Below are positions 23,957 through 32,742 of a stretch of DNA of 64,000 bases, piece after piece. The stretch is from NCBI RefSeq assembly GCF_017310505.1, contig NZ_CP065957.1:1860001-1924000 (forward strand), read 5' to 3'. Each line of letters begins with the position of its first letter. Position 1 is the stretch's first letter. Position numbers and translations under genes: made by a program. The notes under the pieces were generated by a model. It did not search any database. It worked only from the letters and a program-made list of their open reading frames with translations, and was not told the origin of the DNA. The DNA comes from Methylacidiphilum caldifontis. Its GTDB lineage: Bacteria; Verrucomicrobiota; Verrucomicrobiia; Methylacidiphilales; Methylacidiphilaceae.

Positions 23957-24898
23957 ATGGATTTAAAAAAGAAGGCTCTTTTATCAGCTGAGATAACGGA
24001 CTGGATAGAAAGATATATCCGTTATCTTTCTGAAAAGAAATTTTCTTTATATACATTAAGAAATTATGAACAGGCCTTGAAAGAATTTTTTTCTTTTGGA
24101 AATTGGCAATCTTGTAACGAAGTGGGAACTGAAGAATGTCGCAATTATCTTTACTTTCTTTGTAAAAGACCGGATTTAGGACAAAGTACCATTCGGGTAC
24201 GATTTGCTGCACTCCGTTCCTTTTTTAAATTTTATTATAAGGAACAAAATATAGTCAAAGATAATCCCATTTCCTCTATTTTATTGCCCAAGTTGAAACG
24301 TAATTTACCCCGATATCTAAGTTTGGAACAGGTTCATGCGTTGCTTGAAGCTCCTCGACAAAAGTGGGAAAAGGAAAAGGAAAAAGGAAAGAAATCCAGA
24401 TGGAATGAGTGGCAGTGGAAAAGAGACCAAGCATGGTTGGAAACGCTTTATGGGGGAGGTATTCGAGTTGGAGAGCTCAGCACACTTAAAAGGAAAAATT
24501 TTTTCCCTTCAGATCTTGCCATTCTTGTGGAAGGGAAACGGAAAAAAGAAAGATATTGTATTCTTGGGGAAGTTGCCACCGCTTCAATTTGTGCATATTT
24601 GGAAAGCTGTCCTTTTGATTCTGAGTTTCTTTTTGTTTCTTCCCGGGGTAAAGCTCTTACACCTCGATTTTTCCAACTCGCTTTAAAAGAATATTTGATT
24701 ATTTCAGGCTTGGACCAATCAATAAGTCCCCATAAATTAAGGCATACATTTGCCACCCACCTGTTGGAAGGAGGAGCGGATTTGAGAAGTATCCAGGAAC
24801 TGTTAGGTCATGCTCATCTTTCTACCACTCAAATATATACAGCGGTCAGTGCAGAGCATTTGAAAGAGTCTTATTTTCGAGCTCATCCAAGAGCTTGA
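23957..24898 (+). CDS. XerC/XerD-type tyrosine recombinase
   Basis: Site-specific recombinase, probably resolving chromosome dimers at dif. The N-terminal SAM-like domain spans about 10-100 (YIRYLSEKKFSLYTLRNYEQAL). The catalytic domain has Arg in GGGIRVGELS, H-x-x-R in SPHKLRHTFATHLLEGGAD, LLGHAHLSTTQIY with the nucleophile Tyr, and a Lys in the beta-hairpin region. A lysine/glutamate/tryptophan-rich insertion of about 20 residues (around 135-155) precedes the first catalytic Arg. Nothing nearby suggests an integron or element, so a housekeeping Xer is likeliest. XerC cannot be told from XerD. Confidence 0.88.
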   Translation: MDLKKKALLSAEITDWIERYIRYLSEKKFSLYTLRNYEQALKEFFSFGNWQSCNEVGTEECRNYLYFLCKRPDLGQSTIRVRFAALRSFFKFYYKEQNIVKDNPISSILLPKLKRNLPRYLSLEQVHALLEAPRQKWEKEKEKGKKSRWNEWQWKRDQAWLETLYGGGIRVGELSTLKRKNFFPSDLAILVEGKRKKERYCILGEVATASICAYLESCPFDSEFLFVSSRGKALTPRFFQLALKEYLIISGLDQSISPHKLRHTFATHLLEGGADLRSIQELLGHAHLSTTQIYTAVSAEHLKESYFRAHPRA

Positions 24899-24910
24899 AA
24901 AAGGAAACTT

Positions 24911-26290
24911 ATGCGTTCTTTTTTTATCCGACTCCTCTATTCTTTGCTTTTCTGCCTTTTTACCTTGTTCTGTTTACCTTATTATTACCTCAAATTACGA
25001 AGGAGAGGTAATCCTTTTGAAGGGATTGGTCAGCGCTTTGGTTTATATCCAAAGCATAAAATCCATGACAGTGTCGGAGTGGATATATGGATACATGGGG
25101 TGAGTGTTGGAGAAGTGATGATTGGCAAAGTGATTTTAAAAGAACTTTGGAAGCTTAATCCGGAAATTAAAGTGGCTTTTAGCACAACTACCTCAACAGG
25201 TTATAGAATGGCTTTATCTGAACCAAGAGAGAAATGTTCGGTATTCTATTTTCCGCTCGATTTCCCATGGGCAGTAAAAAGGACATTTTCTTTTTTGAAT
25301 CCTAAGTTAGTTGTGCTGATCGAAACTGAAATTTGGCCAAATTTTATCGAAGAATCGAAGAAAAGAAAGGTTCCCATAATCCTTTGTAATGCGAGACTTT
25401 CGGAAAGGACTGAAAAATGGTATACATTTTTTTCTTGGTTCATGAAACCTTTTCTTAACGAGTTGAGCTTGATTCTGGTTACTCATGAGCTAGAAATTGA
25501 GAGATTTGTCAAAGTAGGATTTCCTCCTGAAAGGATATTTTGCTTGGGAAGCATGAAATTTGATGTGGCTAACTATAGAAGTGGTCAGGAAAAAACTTTG
25601 GAGTGGTGGCAAAAAATGGGTTGGGATCAAAGCCATTTAATTATTCTTGGGGGCAGTACGCATCGTGGAGAGGAAGAAATCCTGCTGAAAGAGTTTATCA
25701 GGCTTAAACAGCATTGGCCTAATCTGCGCTTAATCCTGGCTCCTCGCCACGCAGAAAGAGCCAAAGAAATTAAAAATCTTTGCCAGAAATATGGTTTTAT
25801 GCCTGTGATGCGGTCTGATCTTGACAGAATAAACTCCCTCCAGCAATCGTCTGAAATTTTAATCATTAATACAACTGGGGAATTAAGGGCCCTCTATGAA
25901 AAGGCGGATCTTGTTTTCGTAGGCAAGAGTTTAACAGCCAAAGGTGGGCAAAATTTTATAGAAGCTGCTAAAGCGGGGAAAGCCATTATTGTTGGTCCGA
26001 ACATGCAGAATTTTAAATTATTATTTAAACTTTTTGTAGACTGCGAAGCCCTTACGGTTGTCAAGGACGAAGCGGATTTATCTTCTAAGATAGAAGTTCT
26101 TCTTAAAGATGAAAAATTGAGGAAAATGATGGGAGAAAAAGCAAGGTCAGTGTTTATAAAGAACGTGGGGGTAGGAAGAAAAACAGCAGAAATTTTGTAT
26201 AATTATTTGGAATATCAAAAGAAGGGTTCATTAAAATCCCTGTTGCAAAATGGTCTTCAAGAAACAGCAAAGGAAACAAAATATAATTAA
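24911..26290 (+). CDS. waaA: 3-deoxy-D-manno-octulosonic acid (Kdo) transferase
   Basis: Inner-membrane GT30 glycosyltransferase adding Kdo to lipid A precursor, so the cell makes LPS. The 459-residue protein has an N-terminal membrane anchor (about 5-28), then WIHGVSVGEV with the catalytic Glu at about 57-66, FSTTTSTGYRMA, IETEIWPNF, GSTHRGEEEILL, LAPRHAERA and GKSLTAKGGQNFIEAA. All are standard for the family. It starts 12 bases after the xer stop, suggesting co-transcription. Confidence 0.95.
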   Translation: MRSFFIRLLYSLLFCLFTLFCLPYYYLKLRRRGNPFEGIGQRFGLYPKHKIHDSVGVDIWIHGVSVGEVMIGKVILKELWKLNPEIKVAFSTTTSTGYRMALSEPREKCSVFYFPLDFPWAVKRTFSFLNPKLVVLIETEIWPNFIEESKKRKVPIILCNARLSERTEKWYTFFSWFMKPFLNELSLILVTHELEIERFVKVGFPPERIFCLGSMKFDVANYRSGQEKTLEWWQKMGWDQSHLIILGGSTHRGEEEILLKEFIRLKQHWPNLRLILAPRHAERAKEIKNLCQKYGFMPVMRSDLDRINSLQQSSEILIINTTGELRALYEKADLVFVGKSLTAKGGQNFIEAAKAGKAIIVGPNMQNFKLLFKLFVDCEALTVVKDEADLSSKIEVLLKDEKLRKMMGEKARSVFIKNVGVGRKTAEILYNYLEYQKKGSLKSLLQNGLQETAKETKYN

Positions 26291-26332
26291 AACGCTATGG
26301 AATTCTTTTTTTAACACGATATTTTTTTTAAA

Positions 26333-27349
26333 ATGAGTTTAAGTTCATTCGTTCAGTTTAAGACCACTGGGGAAACAAAATCGATGCTACCGATTAAGGT
26401 AGAAGTCAAGAATTTGTCTTTTTCTTACGGAGATCGTCAGGCTTTAGACGGTGTTAGTTTTGAAGTAGAAGAAGGAACAATAGCGGGTATTCTGGGTCCT
26501 AATGGGAGTGGTAAAACCACTCTTTTTAGGATTCTGTCCACACTTCTGCCCTTGACTTCGGGTTCTGTGAAACTATCGGGGTTTTCTTATCCCCAAGAAG
26601 GCTCATCGGCTCGTTCTGTATTGGGTATTGTGTTTCAGTCTCCAAGCTTGGATAAAAAATTGACTGTTGAAGAAAATTTGTTGCACCAAGGTCATTTGTA
26701 TAATCTGCGGGGAAAAGAGCTCCGGCAACGAATAGACGAATTGTTGGAGCTATTTCATCTGTCTGAAAGAAAAAAAGATCTTGTAGAAACCTTGTCGGGA
26801 GGGCTTCAAAGAAGGGTAGAAGTGGCAAAAGGGATATTACATCGACCAGAGATTTTGATTCTGGACGAACCGAGCACAGGCATAGATCCTGCCGCCCGCA
26901 GAGAGATTTGGAATTATCTTTTTACTTTACGTAATGAATTGCGCCTGACGATATTGGTTACCACTCATCTCATGGAAGAAGCTGAAAGATGCGACAAGGT
27001 TTTGATCCTCGATAAAGGAAAAGTGGTCTGTTGGGACAGTCCTGATCGGTTAAGATCATTAATTCCTGGTCTTATTCTTACTGTGCATTCTTCCTATATT
27101 GAGCTTTTAGAAAAGGAAATCTTGAGCTTGGGCAGAACTCCCATTAAAGTTAATGGAGCGCTTCATGTCGAATTGAGAAAGGGAGAGAATAATCAATCCC
27201 TTTTTGAATTTGCGGCCGATTTGTTGGAAAGATATCATCATCATATCTCGGCATTGACCATTTCCAAGCCATCCCTCGAAGATGTTTTCCTCCATTTGAC
27301 TGGTCATCAATTTTTAATAGGAGAAAAAGACAATGCAACAGCCAGTTAG
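26333..27349 (+). CDS. ABC transporter ATP-binding protein (DrrA/NatA type)
   Basis: ATPase of a two-gene ABC-2 exporter. The 338 residues carry Walker A GPNGSGKTT, Q-loop VFQSPSLDKKLT, signature LSGGLQRRVEVAKG, Walker B ILILDEPSTGID and the switch His in TTHLMEE. The C-terminal 90 residues form the usual DrrA-like extension. A better start might be the in-frame ATG about 17 residues in (MLPIKVEVKNLSF). Its 3' end overlaps the permease gene by 17 bases. The following SCO1 and DUF420 genes hint at a role in respiratory oxidase assembly; the substrate is unknown. Confidence 0.92.
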   Translation: MSLSSFVQFKTTGETKSMLPIKVEVKNLSFSYGDRQALDGVSFEVEEGTIAGILGPNGSGKTTLFRILSTLLPLTSGSVKLSGFSYPQEGSSARSVLGIVFQSPSLDKKLTVEENLLHQGHLYNLRGKELRQRIDELLELFHLSERKKDLVETLSGGLQRRVEVAKGILHRPEILILDEPSTGIDPAARREIWNYLFTLRNELRLTILVTTHLMEEAERCDKVLILDKGKVVCWDSPDRLRSLIPGLILTVHSSYIELLEKEILSLGRTPIKVNGALHVELRKGENNQSLFEFAADLLERYHHHISALTISKPSLEDVFLHLTGHQFLIGEKDNATAS

Positions 27350-28127
27350 AAGAGTCGGAAACAATACATTGGCCATATATACCTTATGGAAAAGGGAGGT
27401 AGTCAGGTTTTTGCGTCAAAAAAACCGGATTGTTGGGGCCCTGGGTACTCCTCTGGTGTTCTGGCTTTTAATCGGATCAGGTGTCGGGAGGTCTTTCCAG
27501 TCACCTCACGGTCAAAACTATTTGATTTACTTTTTCCCGGGCATGATGCTCTTAATTCTTCTTTTTACCGCTATATTTTCTACCATATCTATTATCGAAG
27601 ATAGAAGAGAAGGTTTTCTTCAAGCTGTTCTGTGTGCCCCCATTTCCCGTGGCTCGATCGTTGTCTCCAAGCTCCTAGGGGGAACGACGTTAGGATTGTT
27701 GCAATCGCTTTTGGTTTACTTTTTATCTTTACCTATGGGAATTCCTTTTAGTTTTGAAAGATTTTTAGGCATAGTTTTGAGCTTGGGTTTACTGGGAATG
27801 GCGATGACTGCTGTCGGTTATATCTTGGCATGGCCATTGGATTCTGTTCAAGGTTACCACGCTTTAATGAATCTTTTTCTCATGCCTTTATGGCTTTTGT
27901 CTGGGGCTTTGTTCCCTGCTGAAGGAGCCTACGGATGGATTAAAACGATGATTTATCTTAATCCTCTCTATTATGGCTTGGAGATACTGCGGTTTTGGTT
28001 GAGCCCTTATTCCACCCTTGAACAAGGAAAATTGATATTGTATTGTTTCATAACACTGCTTTTCTTTATTGCGGTAACCGCTGTAAGTATTTGGGTAACT
28101 GAAAAAGTTAAAGTTAGACATCCATGA
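27333..28127 (+). CDS. ABC-2 type transporter permease
   Basis: Integral membrane partner of the preceding ATPase (264 residues, about six helices). Residues around 35-60 show the ABC-2 start (FLRQKNRIVGALGTPLVFWLLIGSGVG), and FPGMMLLILLF, LLSGALFPAEG and NPLYYGLEILR are typical later segments. It overlaps the ATPase gene by 17 bases and the SCO1 gene by four, so all three are likely translated together. Confidence 0.92.
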   Translation: MQQPVRRVGNNTLAIYTLWKREVVRFLRQKNRIVGALGTPLVFWLLIGSGVGRSFQSPHGQNYLIYFFPGMMLLILLFTAIFSTISIIEDRREGFLQAVLCAPISRGSIVVSKLLGGTTLGLLQSLLVYFLSLPMGIPFSFERFLGIVLSLGLLGMAMTAVGYILAWPLDSVQGYHALMNLFLMPLWLLSGALFPAEGAYGWIKTMIYLNPLYYGLEILRFWLSPYSTLEQGKLILYCFITLLFFIAVTAVSIWVTEKVKVRHP

Positions 28128-28801
28128 GTTTACAACATCAAGAAAATCCTAAAAATCTCGTCAAGACACTTGTAGTGCTTTTTATATCCTTGGTGGCTGT
28201 TTCCTTTTTTCTCAATCTGACCTCAAGCTATTTCCAGGTTAAATATTGGAAAGAAAGGTCGAACATGCCTAAAATAAGGCAAATTCCTCCCTTTTCTTTG
28301 GTCAGATCGGATGGCGTGACGGTTACCGATCATGATTTGAAAGGGAAGGTGTGGGTGGCGGACTTGATTTATACCCATTGTCCTGGTCCCTGTTCTACGG
28401 AGTCCTTAAGGATGTCGCAGCTTCAGAGTATATTAGGAAAGATAGAAGGAGTTCGGTTGGTTTCCATTTCTATTGACCCCGAAATGGACAATGGCCAGAT
28501 ATTGAGAAAATACGCTGAAGGGTTCCATGCTGATCCAACATTCTGGTATTTTTTGACGGGCAGCTCTCAGAATATCAAGGATTTTGTAGTTAAAGGCCTA
28601 GCCCTGGGAATGGGAGAAAATCCTCAAGATAAAAGACAAACTGAAGGGAAGTTTTACCATTCCACCCAATTTGTTTTAATTGATCAAGAAGGTTTTATCC
28701 GAAAATATTATGATGGCTTGAGTCAAAAAACACCCAAAGAGCTTTCCATAGATATTCTCCTTTTATTGCAAAAAGATTCGAAAAATAATAAAGGAACATA
28801 A
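28124..28801 (+). CDS. SCO1/SenC family copper-binding protein
   Basis: Membrane-anchored thioredoxin-fold protein that delivers copper to the CuA site of cytochrome c oxidase or acts as a thiol reductase. The 225 residues have an N-terminal anchor at about 14-33, then the domain with THCPGPCSTES (the CxxxC copper site), SISIDPEMDNGQILRKYA, and the distal ligand His in KFYHSTQFVLID. All three copper ligands are present, so it should be functional. It follows the ABC genes with a four-base overlap. Confidence 0.93.
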   Translation: MSLQHQENPKNLVKTLVVLFISLVAVSFFLNLTSSYFQVKYWKERSNMPKIRQIPPFSLVRSDGVTVTDHDLKGKVWVADLIYTHCPGPCSTESLRMSQLQSILGKIEGVRLVSISIDPEMDNGQILRKYAEGFHADPTFWYFLTGSSQNIKDFVVKGLALGMGENPQDKRQTEGKFYHSTQFVLIDQEGFIRKYYDGLSQKTPKELSIDILLLLQKDSKNNKGT

Positions 28802-28884
28802 AAAAGATATACCGCAAAGAAAGAATAATGAGGAGATAGAATAACAGAACGGAGTTGTTTATCTTTGCCTATAGAAAGATTACA

Positions 28885-29310
28885 ATGTCTATCAAAGATT
28901 TTCCAGCGATAAACGCCTCCTTGAATGCTCTTACTTTCTTATTCCTCCTGCTAGGTTATATAGCCATTAAACAAGGAAAGAAAGATGCACATAAACTTTG
29001 TATGATTACCGCTTTTACATTATCGATGGCTTTCCTAGCCTGTTATCTGACTTATCATTACTTTCACGGAGCAACCCCCTTCCCAAGACATGATTGGTCA
29101 AGGCCTCTTTATTTCACCATTTTAACTTCGCATACTATTCTGGCTATCATTAATCTTCCCGCTATTTTTTTGGCACTCTATTTTGCTTTTAGAAACCAAT
29201 TTGATCGACACACTCGTATAACTAGGCTTTTATGGCCAAGTTGGGCATATGTGTCGATTACAGGGGTGTTGGTTTATTTCATGCTTTACCATTGGTTTGT
29301 CAAAGCTTAG
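28885..29310 (+). CDS. DUF420-family membrane protein
   Basis: Four-helix membrane protein of 141 residues from the ATG at 28885; an upstream TTG at 28855 would add ten residues. The family pattern is clear: FPAINASLNALTFLFLLLGY, then a HKLCMITAFTLSMAFLACYL helix, YHYFHGATPF, and HTILAIINLPAIFLALYFA. DUF420 proteins include CtaM, needed for haem-copper oxidase assembly in some Firmicutes. Being next to SCO1 supports a similar role here, though this is inference from context. His residues in helices 2-4 may bind haem or metal. Confidence 0.88.
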   Translation: MSIKDFPAINASLNALTFLFLLLGYIAIKQGKKDAHKLCMITAFTLSMAFLACYLTYHYFHGATPFPRHDWSRPLYFTILTSHTILAIINLPAIFLALYFAFRNQFDRHTRITRLLWPSWAYVSITGVLVYFMLYHWFVKA

Positions 29311-29401
29311 AATGTCATTTCCTGTAAAATCAATCCTTGACAACTATTCAATATAATCGATCCATTATTCTAAAGTGGTTAATCACAAAAAGGTCAATGC
29401 C

Positions 29402-30220
29402 GTGAAAAATTGCTTTTGGAAATGTTTTTACGTAATTGTATTTTTTTCCTTCGTAACACCTTCCTTTGTGGGTTATTGTCAAGAAACTGAATTTACAAAA
29501 AGCGAGATTCAGCAAGCGGTCCAGAAGTATGTTTCTGAAAAATCCCATGATGGACTGTTCACCTTTCATGATTCGATTTCTGGCCAGGATCTTTCATTGG
29601 TCTTTGAAAAAGTCCGTATAGTGAGGTCCTTAGCAGGGTATGGCTATTTTGCTACAGCCCAGTTCCATGACCAGCTGGATTCGACTAAGCCTTATGAACT
29701 GGATTTTTGGTGGAAACCTAAAGGCAATGAACTTCTCCTCATGGATATAAGGGTATATAAATTTCCCAAAAAAGAAGGAGATAAATGGGTACTACAGACT
29801 CACTATCCAATAGCTTGGTGGTGGCTTCCCTCGACAGAGCATCCAGGAGAATATGAACAAAAAAGGGCTTGGGAAGTTAAGGCAGCGATTCATGAGTATG
29901 TTGCACAAAAAATGAAAGAAGGGGGTGGAGTTTTCCATCTGAAAGATCCCAAAACGGGAAAAGATCTTTCCTTGGAATTTGTTGAAATTCATAATCCTGT
30001 GAGAAGGATTCCAGGAAAACAGTATTTTGCTTGCACTGATTTTCGTGAAAAAGATGAACCTCAAAAATATTATGACATTGATTTTTGGTTTGATGAAAAA
30101 CAGGGAAAACTCATAGTCAGTGACATCAAAATTCACAAAGAACCCGTTAAGGAAGGGGATCAGTGGATTCAAGTAGAGAGGTATTCTTTTGAAAAAGACC
30201 ATCCTCAGACTGTTCCCTAG
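29402..30220 (+). CDS. Exported protein with two copies of one unrecognised domain
   Basis: I do not recognise the family. From the GTG at 29402, behind AAAAAGGT, the 272-residue protein has a signal peptide at about 1-26 (cut probably after VGYC-Q) and two similar domains at about 36-136 and 160-261. Both copies share a helix ending in YV, then F-x-F/L-x-D, DLSL-x-FE-like and YFA segments, DFW, DI-x-V/I-x-K and GD-x-W, in the same order and spacing. They are separated by a Trp/Pro-rich link (WWWLPSTEHPGEYE). An earlier GTG at 29375 would add nine residues. Its place after the SCO1/DUF420 group suggests a periplasmic partner. Confidence 0.72.
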   Translation: MKNCFWKCFYVIVFFSFVTPSFVGYCQETEFTKSEIQQAVQKYVSEKSHDGLFTFHDSISGQDLSLVFEKVRIVRSLAGYGYFATAQFHDQLDSTKPYELDFWWKPKGNELLLMDIRVYKFPKKEGDKWVLQTHYPIAWWWLPSTEHPGEYEQKRAWEVKAAIHEYVAQKMKEGGGVFHLKDPKTGKDLSLEFVEIHNPVRRIPGKQYFACTDFREKDEPQKYYDIDFWFDEKQGKLIVSDIKIHKEPVKEGDQWIQVERYSFEKDHPQTVP

Positions 30221-30269
30221 ATCAACTTTTAGTTAACTCTTTGGATTTGTGGCAGAAAGAGGTAAAGCT

Positions 30270-31712
30270 ATGTATCGAGAAACATTGCACCAAAAATGGA
30301 TTACACAGGGCAAAATTGGAAGCGATTGGGTAGAAACTTTGGATAGCTTTGAGCTCATTAGTCCCATTGATGGAAGGGTGATTGGACTTGTTTCTGATTG
30401 TGGCCCAGAAGAAGCTCGTTGGGCTATAGACGAGTCTCAGAAGGCTTTTGAGTTGTGGAAAAATACAACAGCTGAATATCGTTCTGAACTCCTCCGTTCG
30501 TGGGCACAACTAATCGTAAAAGAAAAAACGACATTGGCTGAGATTATGGCCCTTGAAATGGGAAAACCCGTTAAAGAGGGTAGAAAGGAAATCGATTATG
30601 CTGCCAGTTTTGTGAACTGGTACGCAGAGGAAGCCAAAAGGATTTATGGAATGACGATTCCTCCTTCAGGATCTTCTAAAAAAATCATTGTTTCTCATGA
30701 ACCCGTTGGACCGGTTCTTTGCATCACTCCTTGGAATTTTCCCTCCGCCATGGTTACAAGAAAAGCTGCCTCGGCTATGGCGGCCGGATGCACAGTTATT
30801 GTGAAGCCTTCCGAACATAGTCCTTTATCGGCTTTATACCTTGTTTCTCTTTGGGATAAAGTTGGAGGTCCCCCAGGGGTATTCCAGGTTCTTCCAACCT
30901 CAAGACCTGAAAAGCTATGTAAACCCTTTTTCGATGATTTTAGAATAAGAAAGGTATCTTTTACCGGAAGTGTTCCTGTAGGTAAAGCTCTTTATCAGGA
31001 AAGTGCTAAAACCTTGAAAGGAGTTCTTCTTGAATTAGGGGGTAATGCCCCGATGATTGTATTTGCTGATGCCAATCTGGATATAGCAGTAAGAGAAGCA
31101 ATTCAAGCTAAGTTTAGAAATGCAGGTCAAGCCTGTATCGCTGTGAATAGGCTTTATGTTGAGAATAAAATTATCGGTAGTTTTTGCAACAAGCTTGTGG
31201 AAGAGACCAAAAAACTGAGAGTAGGTAATCCTTTGGACGAAGGAGTTGACATTGGGCCTTTGGTGAATGAGAAAGCACTTAAAAAGATAGACTCCTTGCT
31301 TTCAGATGCGCTATCCAAGGGAGCAGAAATAATCTACCGTGGAGAAGCCACCGGATTATATTTTGGTCCTACAATTGTTCGACTCAATGATACTCTTTTA
31401 CAGATTGTTACCCATGAGATCTTCGGTCCTGTTTTGCCAGTTATACCCTTCGAATCTGAAAGTGAAGTAGTGAGCTGGGCTAATGGTACCCGTTATGGAC
31501 TGGCAGCTTATATCATGACATCTGATCTTAGAAGAGCTTTTCGTCTTTCTCATGCATTGGAGTTTGGGATTGTGGGTATCAATGATGGTAGGCCTTCTTG
31601 CTGTCAAGCACCGTTTGGAGGGATTAAAGAATCGGGTATTGGACGGGAAGGGGGACAATGGGGAATAAAGGAATTTTTAGAAACGAAGTATTTATCTTTT
31701 AATCTCGAATAG
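30270..31712 (+). CDS. gabD: NAD(P)-dependent aldehyde dehydrogenase, succinate-semialdehyde type
   Basis: Oxidises an aldehyde, most likely succinate semialdehyde, to the acid. The ATG at 30270 follows AAAGAGG at 30256-30262, giving 480 residues; the upstream GTG at 30249 lacks that support. Family motifs: CITPWNFPSAMVTRKAASAMAAGCTVIVKPSE, FTGSVPVGK, catalytic Glu in LLELGGNAP and catalytic Cys in FRNAGQACIAVNR. The closeness to GabD is by overall look; substrate is not proven. No transaminase gene is adjacent. Confidence 0.88.
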   Translation: MYRETLHQKWITQGKIGSDWVETLDSFELISPIDGRVIGLVSDCGPEEARWAIDESQKAFELWKNTTAEYRSELLRSWAQLIVKEKTTLAEIMALEMGKPVKEGRKEIDYAASFVNWYAEEAKRIYGMTIPPSGSSKKIIVSHEPVGPVLCITPWNFPSAMVTRKAASAMAAGCTVIVKPSEHSPLSALYLVSLWDKVGGPPGVFQVLPTSRPEKLCKPFFDDFRIRKVSFTGSVPVGKALYQESAKTLKGVLLELGGNAPMIVFADANLDIAVREAIQAKFRNAGQACIAVNRLYVENKIIGSFCNKLVEETKKLRVGNPLDEGVDIGPLVNEKALKKIDSLLSDALSKGAEIIYRGEATGLYFGPTIVRLNDTLLQIVTHEIFGPVLPVIPFESESEVVSWANGTRYGLAAYIMTSDLRRAFRLSHALEFGIVGINDGRPSCCQAPFGGIKESGIGREGGQWGIKEFLETKYLSFNLE

Positions 31713-31839
31713 GTTGCGTTTGTAAATCATTTAGATCAGGTTAGAGAAATAGAACAAGGCTTTTTTTTCTTTGAAATTTCGATTTGAACGACCGGCCGAA
31801 TAAATTAAATCTTTATTACCTTCTAAAAAGCCATTCTTG

Positions 31840-32742
31840 TTAATCAGGAATTCTTTCTAAAGCCTCTATTCTCTCATCGAGTGGTGGATGAGTAGCCAGA
31901 AGGGCTAGAATACCTCCTGGTCTACCATTGATTTTAAAAGCGTTCAGTGCAGGAGAACGTTCATCAATAAAAGCCGACTCCCCTTCCATAATCTGCTTGA
32001 GTTTTTTGAGAGCAGAGATCATGGCTTCTTTGCCTGCAAGATGAGCTCCTCCAGCATCCGCGCGAAACTCTCTCATTCGAGAATACCAAGCGACGATGAT
32101 CGAAGCTAAAAGACCAAGTACGATTTCAGAAATAAACATGCCTAAATAAAAGCCTATGCCTATAGACTCTCTCTCATCATTGCGGCTAAACAACCGATCA
32201 ACAAAGAATCCTATAATGCGGGATAGAAAGACCACAAAAGTATTTACAACACCTTGTAACAAAGACATTGTGACCATATCCCCGTTGTTTATATGGGTGA
32301 TTTCATGAGCAAGCACACCGGCAATCTGTTTTTTATTCATCTGCGACAGAATTCCTGTACTTACCGCCACAAGGGCGTTAGACCGGGAAGGGCCTGTGGC
32401 AAAGGCGTTTACTTCGGGGCTTTCGTAAATGCCTACTTCAGGCATTTTGATATTTGCTCGTTGGGCTAACTCGGAAACCGTTTCGATCAACCATCTTTCA
32501 GCTTCGTTTGAGGGCTCTTGTATAACGTGGATATTATAAGCCATTTTGGCCATCCACTTGGATAGGGCAAGAGAGATAAAACTACCCGTAAAACCGACGA
32601 CCATGGAAAATAAAAAGAGGGTTTGATAATCTATTCCATATACATTTAGCCATCGGTCCAGGTGCAGTATGGAAATGACCAAAGTCAACAAAACGATTAC
32701 AGCGATGTTTGTAAGCGTTAACAAGAAGATGCGTTTGAACAT
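31840..32742 (-). CDS. htpX: HtpX-family membrane zinc protease (M48)
   Basis: Inner-membrane metalloprotease that degrades misfolded membrane proteins. The 300-residue protein has two N-terminal helices (about 5-27 and 38-60), the zinc site HEITHINNGD at about 145-154, two more helices (about 160-182 and 195-220), and the third ligand in EFRADAGGAHLAGK. The C-terminal LLATHPPLDERIEALER is the usual ending. It ends 130 bases from the convergent aldehyde dehydrogenase gene. Confidence 0.95.
   Translation of the reverse strand: MFKRIFLLTLTNIAVIVLLTLVISILHLDRWLNVYGIDYQTLFLFSMVVGFTGSFISLALSKWMAKMAYNIHVIQEPSNEAERWLIETVSELAQRANIKMPEVGIYESPEVNAFATGPSRSNALVAVSTGILSQMNKKQIAGVLAHEITHINNGDMVTMSLLQGVVNTFVVFLSRIIGFFVDRLFSRNDERESIGIGFYLGMFISEIVLGLLASIIVAWYSRMREFRADAGGAHLAGKEAMISALKKLKQIMEGESAFIDERSPALNAFKINGRPGGILALLATHPPLDERIEALERIPD

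Follow-up and report, generated by a model that had tools for sequence, protein, structure and literature searches.

Gene content of the locus

The window analysed here, a 64-kb stretch (bases 1860001-1924000) of the single-contig genome of the acidophilic methane oxidiser Methylacidiphilum (2,254,698 bases), contains at positions 26333-30220 five genes on the plus strand which, as judged from open reading frames (ORFs) and sequence, encode an ABC ATPase, an ABC-2 permease, SCO1, a DUF420 protein and the product of a fifth ORF. Our reading of this locus, to which we assign a probability of roughly 0.8, is that the first four genes form one operon, which would be transcribed as a unit and represents a maturation unit for haem-copper oxidases without an adjacent oxidase gene, and that the fifth gene is separate from it and probably has its own promoter.

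The gene of the ATP-binding protein, which is of the ABC-2 exporter type (26333-27349), overlaps that of the ABC-2 type permease (27333-28127) by 17 nt, and the latter overlaps the gene of the SCO1/SenC copper chaperone (28124-28801) by 4 nt. The gene of the DUF420 (CtaM family) membrane protein (28885-29310) is located close behind; its start is more likely ATG 28885 than the alternative TTG 28855, with distances to SCO1 of 83 nt and 53 nt, respectively. These genes and overlaps had been described correctly in an earlier account made from the letters of this DNA (the sequence-only reading). According to Pfam, the two ABC proteins belong to ABC-2 transporters (ABC_tran, 112.6 bits versus a cut-off of 25, E 2.8e-32; ABC2_membrane, 100.1 versus 26.9 bits, E 1.7e-28), and membership is equally clear for SCO1 (PF02630, 87.2 bits versus a gathering score of 22.8, E 1.2e-24) and DUF420 (PF04238, 142.1 bits versus 30.5, E 1.6e-41). 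Among more narrowly defined families, both ABC proteins scored below the curated cut-offs of the drug exporters DrrA/DrrB (TIGR01188, TIGR01247; 262.2 versus 312.45 and 146.5 versus 223.05) and of the ABC transporters associated with PQQ alcohol dehydrogenases (TIGR03864, TIGR03861; 223.3 versus 302.25 and 91.7 versus 241.35). An Rfam scan of positions 24000-32000 detected nothing reaching the gathering score.

A four-gene unit conserved across the order

Conservation was analysed in genome sets of the family (n = 13, comprising five genomes of this genus including that of the window and eight of two other genera), the order (n = 62) and the phylum (n = 387). All four genes are present on the same strand in 12 of the 13 family genomes. 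Within the genus, the order XerC-KdtA-ABC-permease-SCO1-DUF420-fifth-ALDH-HtpX-PurD is identical in the window and its four relatives (5/5). For the other two genera, ABC-permease-SCO1-DUF420 is complete at seven of the eight SCO1 loci fetched, with KdtA upstream in six of these (at a distance of about 2 kb in L039), and the stretch containing the seventh (L034) stops at a contig end just beyond the ABC gene. When the whole order was searched with the permease, 45 of 62 genomes showed a match at E<=1e-20, 12 of them from the family; loci were fetched from 20 of the 33 remaining genomes (stretches of 4-13 kb, one of them, L184, truncated by its contig), and the full four-gene order was found in 15 of the 20. 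With its own family counted, this order occurs in seven families, and it was also found in two further genomes, G007 and G374. At the level of the phylum, 13 of 387 genomes encode the permease at E<=1e-30, and all 13 are among the 124 genomes with DUF420 (PF04238), a co-occurrence that is uncorrected for kinship. ABC-permease-SCO1-DUF420 is a real, conserved four-gene unit.

In the genome of the window there is one SCO1 (PF02630) match and one DUF420 match. A second, more distant SCO1-family match was observed in two genomes of the second genus (G018:C2:201967-202353 and G019:C1:1043426-1043812).

Link to oxidases and distance from their genes

The genome contains five COX1 matches (at 145, 287, 959, 1419 and 1622 kb) and a CtaA match at 2221 kb, and with the unit located at 1886-1890 kb, the nearest COX1 is more than 260 kb away. 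COX1/2/3, CtaA and CtaB queries had no match in the 64-kb window at E<=1e-5, confirming that no oxidase gene is near. In the 12 family genomes with the unit, no COX1 match shares a contig with DUF420 at a distance of 50 kb or less, a comparison of the 20 order-level loci (4-13 kb each) with COX1, COX2, COX3, CtaA and CtaB yielded nothing at E<=1e-6, and all four genes in G007 (15.5 kb) are likewise without a COX/Cta match. Detachment from oxidase genes thus extends beyond this genus and its family.

In G374, a genome of the same class, the unit forms the tail of a COX1-CtaA-CtaB-COX3-ABC-permease-SCO1-DUF420 operon, in which CtaA, CtaB (UbiA) and COX3 are supported by Pfam, as is a cbb3-like set located further on, on the opposite strand. 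In addition, we examined 34 DUF420 loci of the phylum (8.9-15.5 kb each) picked by hand to span families. COX/Cta genes are close to DUF420 in 25 of these, a proportion for which there is no random-locus baseline, and SCO1 is present in 19. The ABC pair precedes SCO1-DUF420 in two (G007 and G374), and a third locus contains a lone ABC match on the opposite strand. The four-gene unit is well supported as being of the oxidase-assembly type and detached from oxidase genes here, as the sequence-only reading had proposed in calling it a detached assembly module.

Around one of the COX1 genes (L126 4245-15937, 952-968 kb of the genome), a COX2/COX3/COX1 cluster is followed by genes for a FixO-like cytochrome, for a COX1-like protein that is divergent and unmatched in Pfam (E<=0.01), and for a cytochrome c, and then by a NosL-NosD-ABC set in which the permease position is taken by a further protein.

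Copper ligands and the possible cargo of the exporter

In the alignment of 29 module proteins, both cysteines of the SCO1 motif CPGPC (C86, C90) and H179, i.e. the CxxxC and distal His copper ligands, are invariant (29/29), and three His of DUF420 are conserved at 97%. In our working model, ATPase and permease would constitute an exporter in the inner membrane, and the DUF420 protein, acting with or beside this exporter, would take part in the membrane step of copper delivery. SCO1 would be membrane-anchored, with its CxxxC/His copper site outside, and would take up the copper and load oxidase subunits at Cu-A and perhaps Cu-B. Because they are the sole PF02630 and DUF420 matches of the genome, SCO1 and DUF420 would serve all its oxidases; that other copper enzymes might be served as well had been raised in the sequence-only reading. 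Passages of the literature report several oxidase types in these methanotrophs (PMC8498564) and a requirement of these organisms for copper (PMC6688271).

According to passages of a 2022 review, CtaM is needed for oxidase activity, haem a and a3 are formed without it, and its contribution may be to the assembly of Cu-B or to some other late step (PMC9145763). In a proposal from 2026, which cites Sco-DUF420 fusions, CtaM is an exporter of copper, or assists in its export, and Sco then binds the metal; its authors term their copper-export model speculative (PMC13344008). The operon described here fits this proposal and adds an ABC exporter to it. The exporter might move copper, with lipid, haem or another cargo as alternatives. 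We put forward only tentatively, and as the less likely case, that CtaM (DUF420) has a partner in this order of Verrucomicrobiota rather than acting on its own: an ABC-2 exporter dedicated to the task, encoded together with CtaM and Sco, would transport copper or a ligand of copper through the membrane and pass it on to Sco. If true, oxidases would receive copper via an ATP-powered relay of Sco and CtaM which is distinct from supply by P-type ATPases, and the role of CtaM would become testable.

Several observations weigh against our reading of the locus or against copper as the cargo. One family genome (G017, an assembly of about 270 contigs) encodes only a more distant SCO1 and has no DUF420 or permease match anywhere in the assembly. 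Among the order-level loci, L179 is without SCO1, and the sequence covered for L177, L181 and L193 includes neither SCO1 nor DUF420. Of the 13 permease-encoding genomes of the phylum, five (G385, G421, G332, G404, G183; L139-L143) have the ABC pair at loci without SCO1 and DUF420, which indicates that the pair leads a life of its own, and it is absent from 32 of the 34 sampled DUF420 loci. In one genome of the genus (G024), the ABC and permease genes are parted by an insertion. Furthermore, the permease contains one invariant His and has no Cys or Met conserved at the 90% level, and thus nothing in it points to copper.

It is conceivable that the ABC pair exports something else (a lipid, a drug-like compound or haem), that SCO1 and DUF420 alone serve the oxidases and that the gene order was inherited without a shared function. 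The solitary pairs and the absence of conserved Cys and Met in the permease agree with this, DrrA/DrrB are among the best-scoring named families for the ABC pair, and three plasmid relatives of the permease are located amid unrelated genes. On the other hand, the DrrA and DrrB scores both remain under the curated cut-offs, and the gene order persists across seven families of the order as well as in G374, whose ABC pair lies within an oxidase operon. We consider an unrelated cargo a serious possibility which nevertheless falls short of even odds. As a guide to function, the plasmid relatives were discarded as uninformative: of four haloarchaeal records found, the three inspected contain drug-exporter-like pairs amid unrelated genes.

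The two insertions in G024 (L024 8826-9143 and 11118-11584) are located at the DUF420/fifth-gene junction and the ABC/permease junction, where an overlap of the type seen in the window has been split. They look like remnants of mobile elements; a search of both for repeats found nothing.

The fifth gene is a neighbour of the operon

The sequence-only reading had combined all five genes into one functional module, with the fifth gene (29402-30220) encoding a new periplasmic factor for oxidase assembly. Seen in a single genome, the fifth gene does look like an assembly factor. In all five genomes of the genus, the five genes are adjacent and on one strand, and in four of these 84-101 nt separate the fifth gene from the preceding one. 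Its product is apparently exported, and an invariant His-Cys-Asp-His set in the second domain of this protein could bind metal. However, this adjacency is part of a collinear ten-gene stretch, in which XerC, KdtA, ALDH, HtpX and PurD are just as collinear with the operon. Beyond the genus, linkage is lost (0/8): in all eight genomes of the other two genera, seven of which possess the four-gene unit, the fifth gene is located away from the module, and its surroundings (6-17 kb) show no match to the module, flank or oxidase queries. In two of these genomes that consist of a single contig (G022, G019), the distance to the module is about 1 Mb, and the neighbours of the fifth gene in G022 are ORFs read as QueA and a GntR-type regulator. 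Nor was a match to the fifth gene found at any of the 20 order-level module loci. Every one of the 13 family genomes matches the fifth gene at E<=1e-70, and among the other 49 genomes of the order four have matches, at E 0.17-0.52 only.

This linkage evidence from other genera and order-level loci largely refutes a five-gene module, which we have rejected. That the fifth gene has its own conserved upstream block, and that its protein's domain pairs with transglutaminase-like domains outside the family (both discussed below), also argue against it, and we regard an assembly factor belonging to this module as very improbable. The fifth gene is a neighbour, located next to the operon in this genus only, and not a member of the module. 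Of the sequence-only reading, the detached assembly module has thus held up for the first four genes, and the inclusion of the fifth gene has not.

Among four spacers tested, the one upstream of the fifth gene is the only one with conservation between the sub-lineages of the genus. When the window was compared with L023 and L025, this spacer reached z scores of 15.2 and 10.9 against shuffled sequences, compared to -0.2 to 1.0 for the KdtA-ABC, SCO1-DUF420 and FIFTH-ALDH spacers; in comparison with the closer relative L022, the fifth-gene upstream spacer reached a z score of 21.9 and KdtA-ABC one of 13.2, and the remaining two spacers scored -0.9 and 0.6. This test covered L022, L023 and L025 but not L024, and the alignment of the block comprises five genomes. 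The conserved non-coding block (29313-29375 of the window) is located outside the module, contains TTGACA at 29337-29342 and is a probable promoter region. In G024 the insertion is found directly 5' of the block, which has stayed with the fifth gene. As this spacer alone is conserved and has been kept with the gene in G024, the pattern suggests that the fifth gene has its own promoter. A simple promoter scan of positions 26200-30400 did not predict a site in the block; the promoter and terminator scan of this region was uninformative, with 10 and 3 sites compared to 9.6 and 4.3 in shuffled sequences. The start codon is probably GTG 29402 and not 29375, because AAAAAGG ends eight bases 5' of this GTG and AAAGG is found equally far from the ATG in L022, and because 29375 is the end of the conserved non-coding block.

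In the second genus (L026-L032), the region 5' of the fifth gene contains TTGACA and AATATTTTTC, conserved in 7/7 loci, and a palindrome which reads TGTAATTACA in 5/7 and TGTGATTACA in 2/7.

Domains and possible origin of the fifth protein

The fifth protein consists of two domains in tandem (domain 1 with linker, 29489-29848; domain 2, 29849-30217), as noted in the sequence-only reading. The two halves are homologous: a profile of the first half recovers 13/13 second halves and vice versa, with E values from 1e-18 to 4e-30 (search space 1000). The protein belongs to no named family, which also had been stated correctly; Pfam and NCBIfam searches yielded nothing at E<=0.1, and thus no Transglut_core (PF01841) either. 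A profile including both halves and three distant copies (A3; E<=0.001) matched 16 of the 387 phylum genomes, six from the family and ten from outside. In eight of these ten the domain is fused N-terminally to Transglut_core, in one (G178) Transglut_core is encoded by a downstream ORF, and in the last (G274) the gene is cut by a contig end. Four residues (His1, Cys, Asp and His2) are shared by 23/23 sequences (13 second halves and 10 distant copies). In contrast, His1 and Cys have been lost from 13/13 first halves, and Asp and His2 have each been kept in 7/13. A role of the His-Cys-Asp-His set in binding metal or in thiol chemistry would be plausible.

The fifth protein might derive from a transglutaminase-like envelope protein, namely from its N-terminal partner domain, with domain 2 having kept the original site and domain 1 being degenerate, an origin for which we see slightly better than even chances. 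Both the fusions and the distribution of the four residues agree with it. In addition, structure models (mean pLDDT 68.3 and 73.5) show one helix followed by strands, and their best structural alignments are with cystatin/NTF2-like chains. These alignments have middling scores, however, the best chain being 4r80_A, a designed cystatin fold (Z 7.9 with 76 aligned residues at 2.7 A and Z 7.4 with 74 at 2.4 A, in a range which the tool rates as common), Foldseek found no match for the models at E<=0.001, and the direction of descent is an inference. A sequence search of solved structures yielded nothing better than E 0.26 and PHROGs nothing below E 0.23, and plasmid searches with the domain and with the distant copy from G224 found no match.

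Alternatively, the fifth protein could be a factor of this family for methanol dehydrogenase or methane oxidation, consistent with its presence in 13/13 family genomes, the 49 remaining genomes of the order being without a clear match. In G028 (L033 4028-12954), the fifth gene is divergent from the gene of a PQQ-dependent methanol/ethanol-type dehydrogenase (670 bits versus a cut-off of 480), which is followed by genes for a MoxJ-type protein and cytochromes, and a 1049-aa protein encoded nearby has a weak CopC match below the cut-off. But in the remaining 12 family genomes the dehydrogenase gene is far off or on another contig, and ten genomes from other families also encode distant relatives of the domain; we regard this role as improbable.

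Two sets of candidate relatives were dropped. The genome of the window contains a weak additional match to the fifth protein (E 0.0064), in a large frame with a sulfotransferase-like start, which was judged to be due to chance. Very weak matches of another profile (A1) in G367, G210 and G077, of which the one inspected lies in an apparent solute-binding protein, were not recovered by A3 at E<=0.001. Among the ten distant copies, three are preceded directly 5' by small genes encoding proteins that end with PKDHPAH (L048 806-1252 in G224, L049 960-1223 in G158, L156 872-1114 in G274), and the single-domain protein of G178 has the C-terminus EHPEHPEHPEHPE.

Comparison with known systems

A literature search, largely restricted to papers accessible without subscription, found no description of an ABC-SCO1-DUF420 operon. 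An operon of ABC exporter, Sco and CtaM that is conserved across an order provides a natural partner for testing the copper step proposed for CtaM.

The DUF420 protein belongs to the same Pfam family as CtaM of Staphylococcus aureus and YozB of Bacillus subtilis, with a score above the cut-off, and in relatives its gene is found with oxidase and haem A genes. Passages of a review place published ctaM genes adjacent to ctaB or at the end of ctaCDEFM, and apart in B. subtilis (PMC9145763); here, in contrast, an ABC exporter and SCO1 precede DUF420, away from oxidase genes. SCO1 resembles the SCO1/SenC chaperones in its above-cut-off family match and in its CxxxC and distal His ligands, but its gene overlaps that of an ABC-2 permease. 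DrrAB-type ABC-2 exporters are the best-scoring NCBIfam subfamily for both ABC proteins, which differ from them in remaining below the curated cut-offs. Transglutaminase-like proteins with an unnamed N-terminal domain share this domain with both halves of the fifth protein, which consists of two copies of it and has no transglutaminase part.

NosDFY with NosL is an example of an ABC ATPase and permease serving a copper enzyme. The unit described here likewise includes an ABC ATPase and permease, and a NosL-NosD-ABC set is located by an oxidase cluster in the same genome, whereas the unit itself contains neither NosD nor NosL. In summary, the four-gene unit represents a variant of the gene sets known for oxidase assembly, to which an ABC exporter has been added, and it has been kept in seven families of one order.

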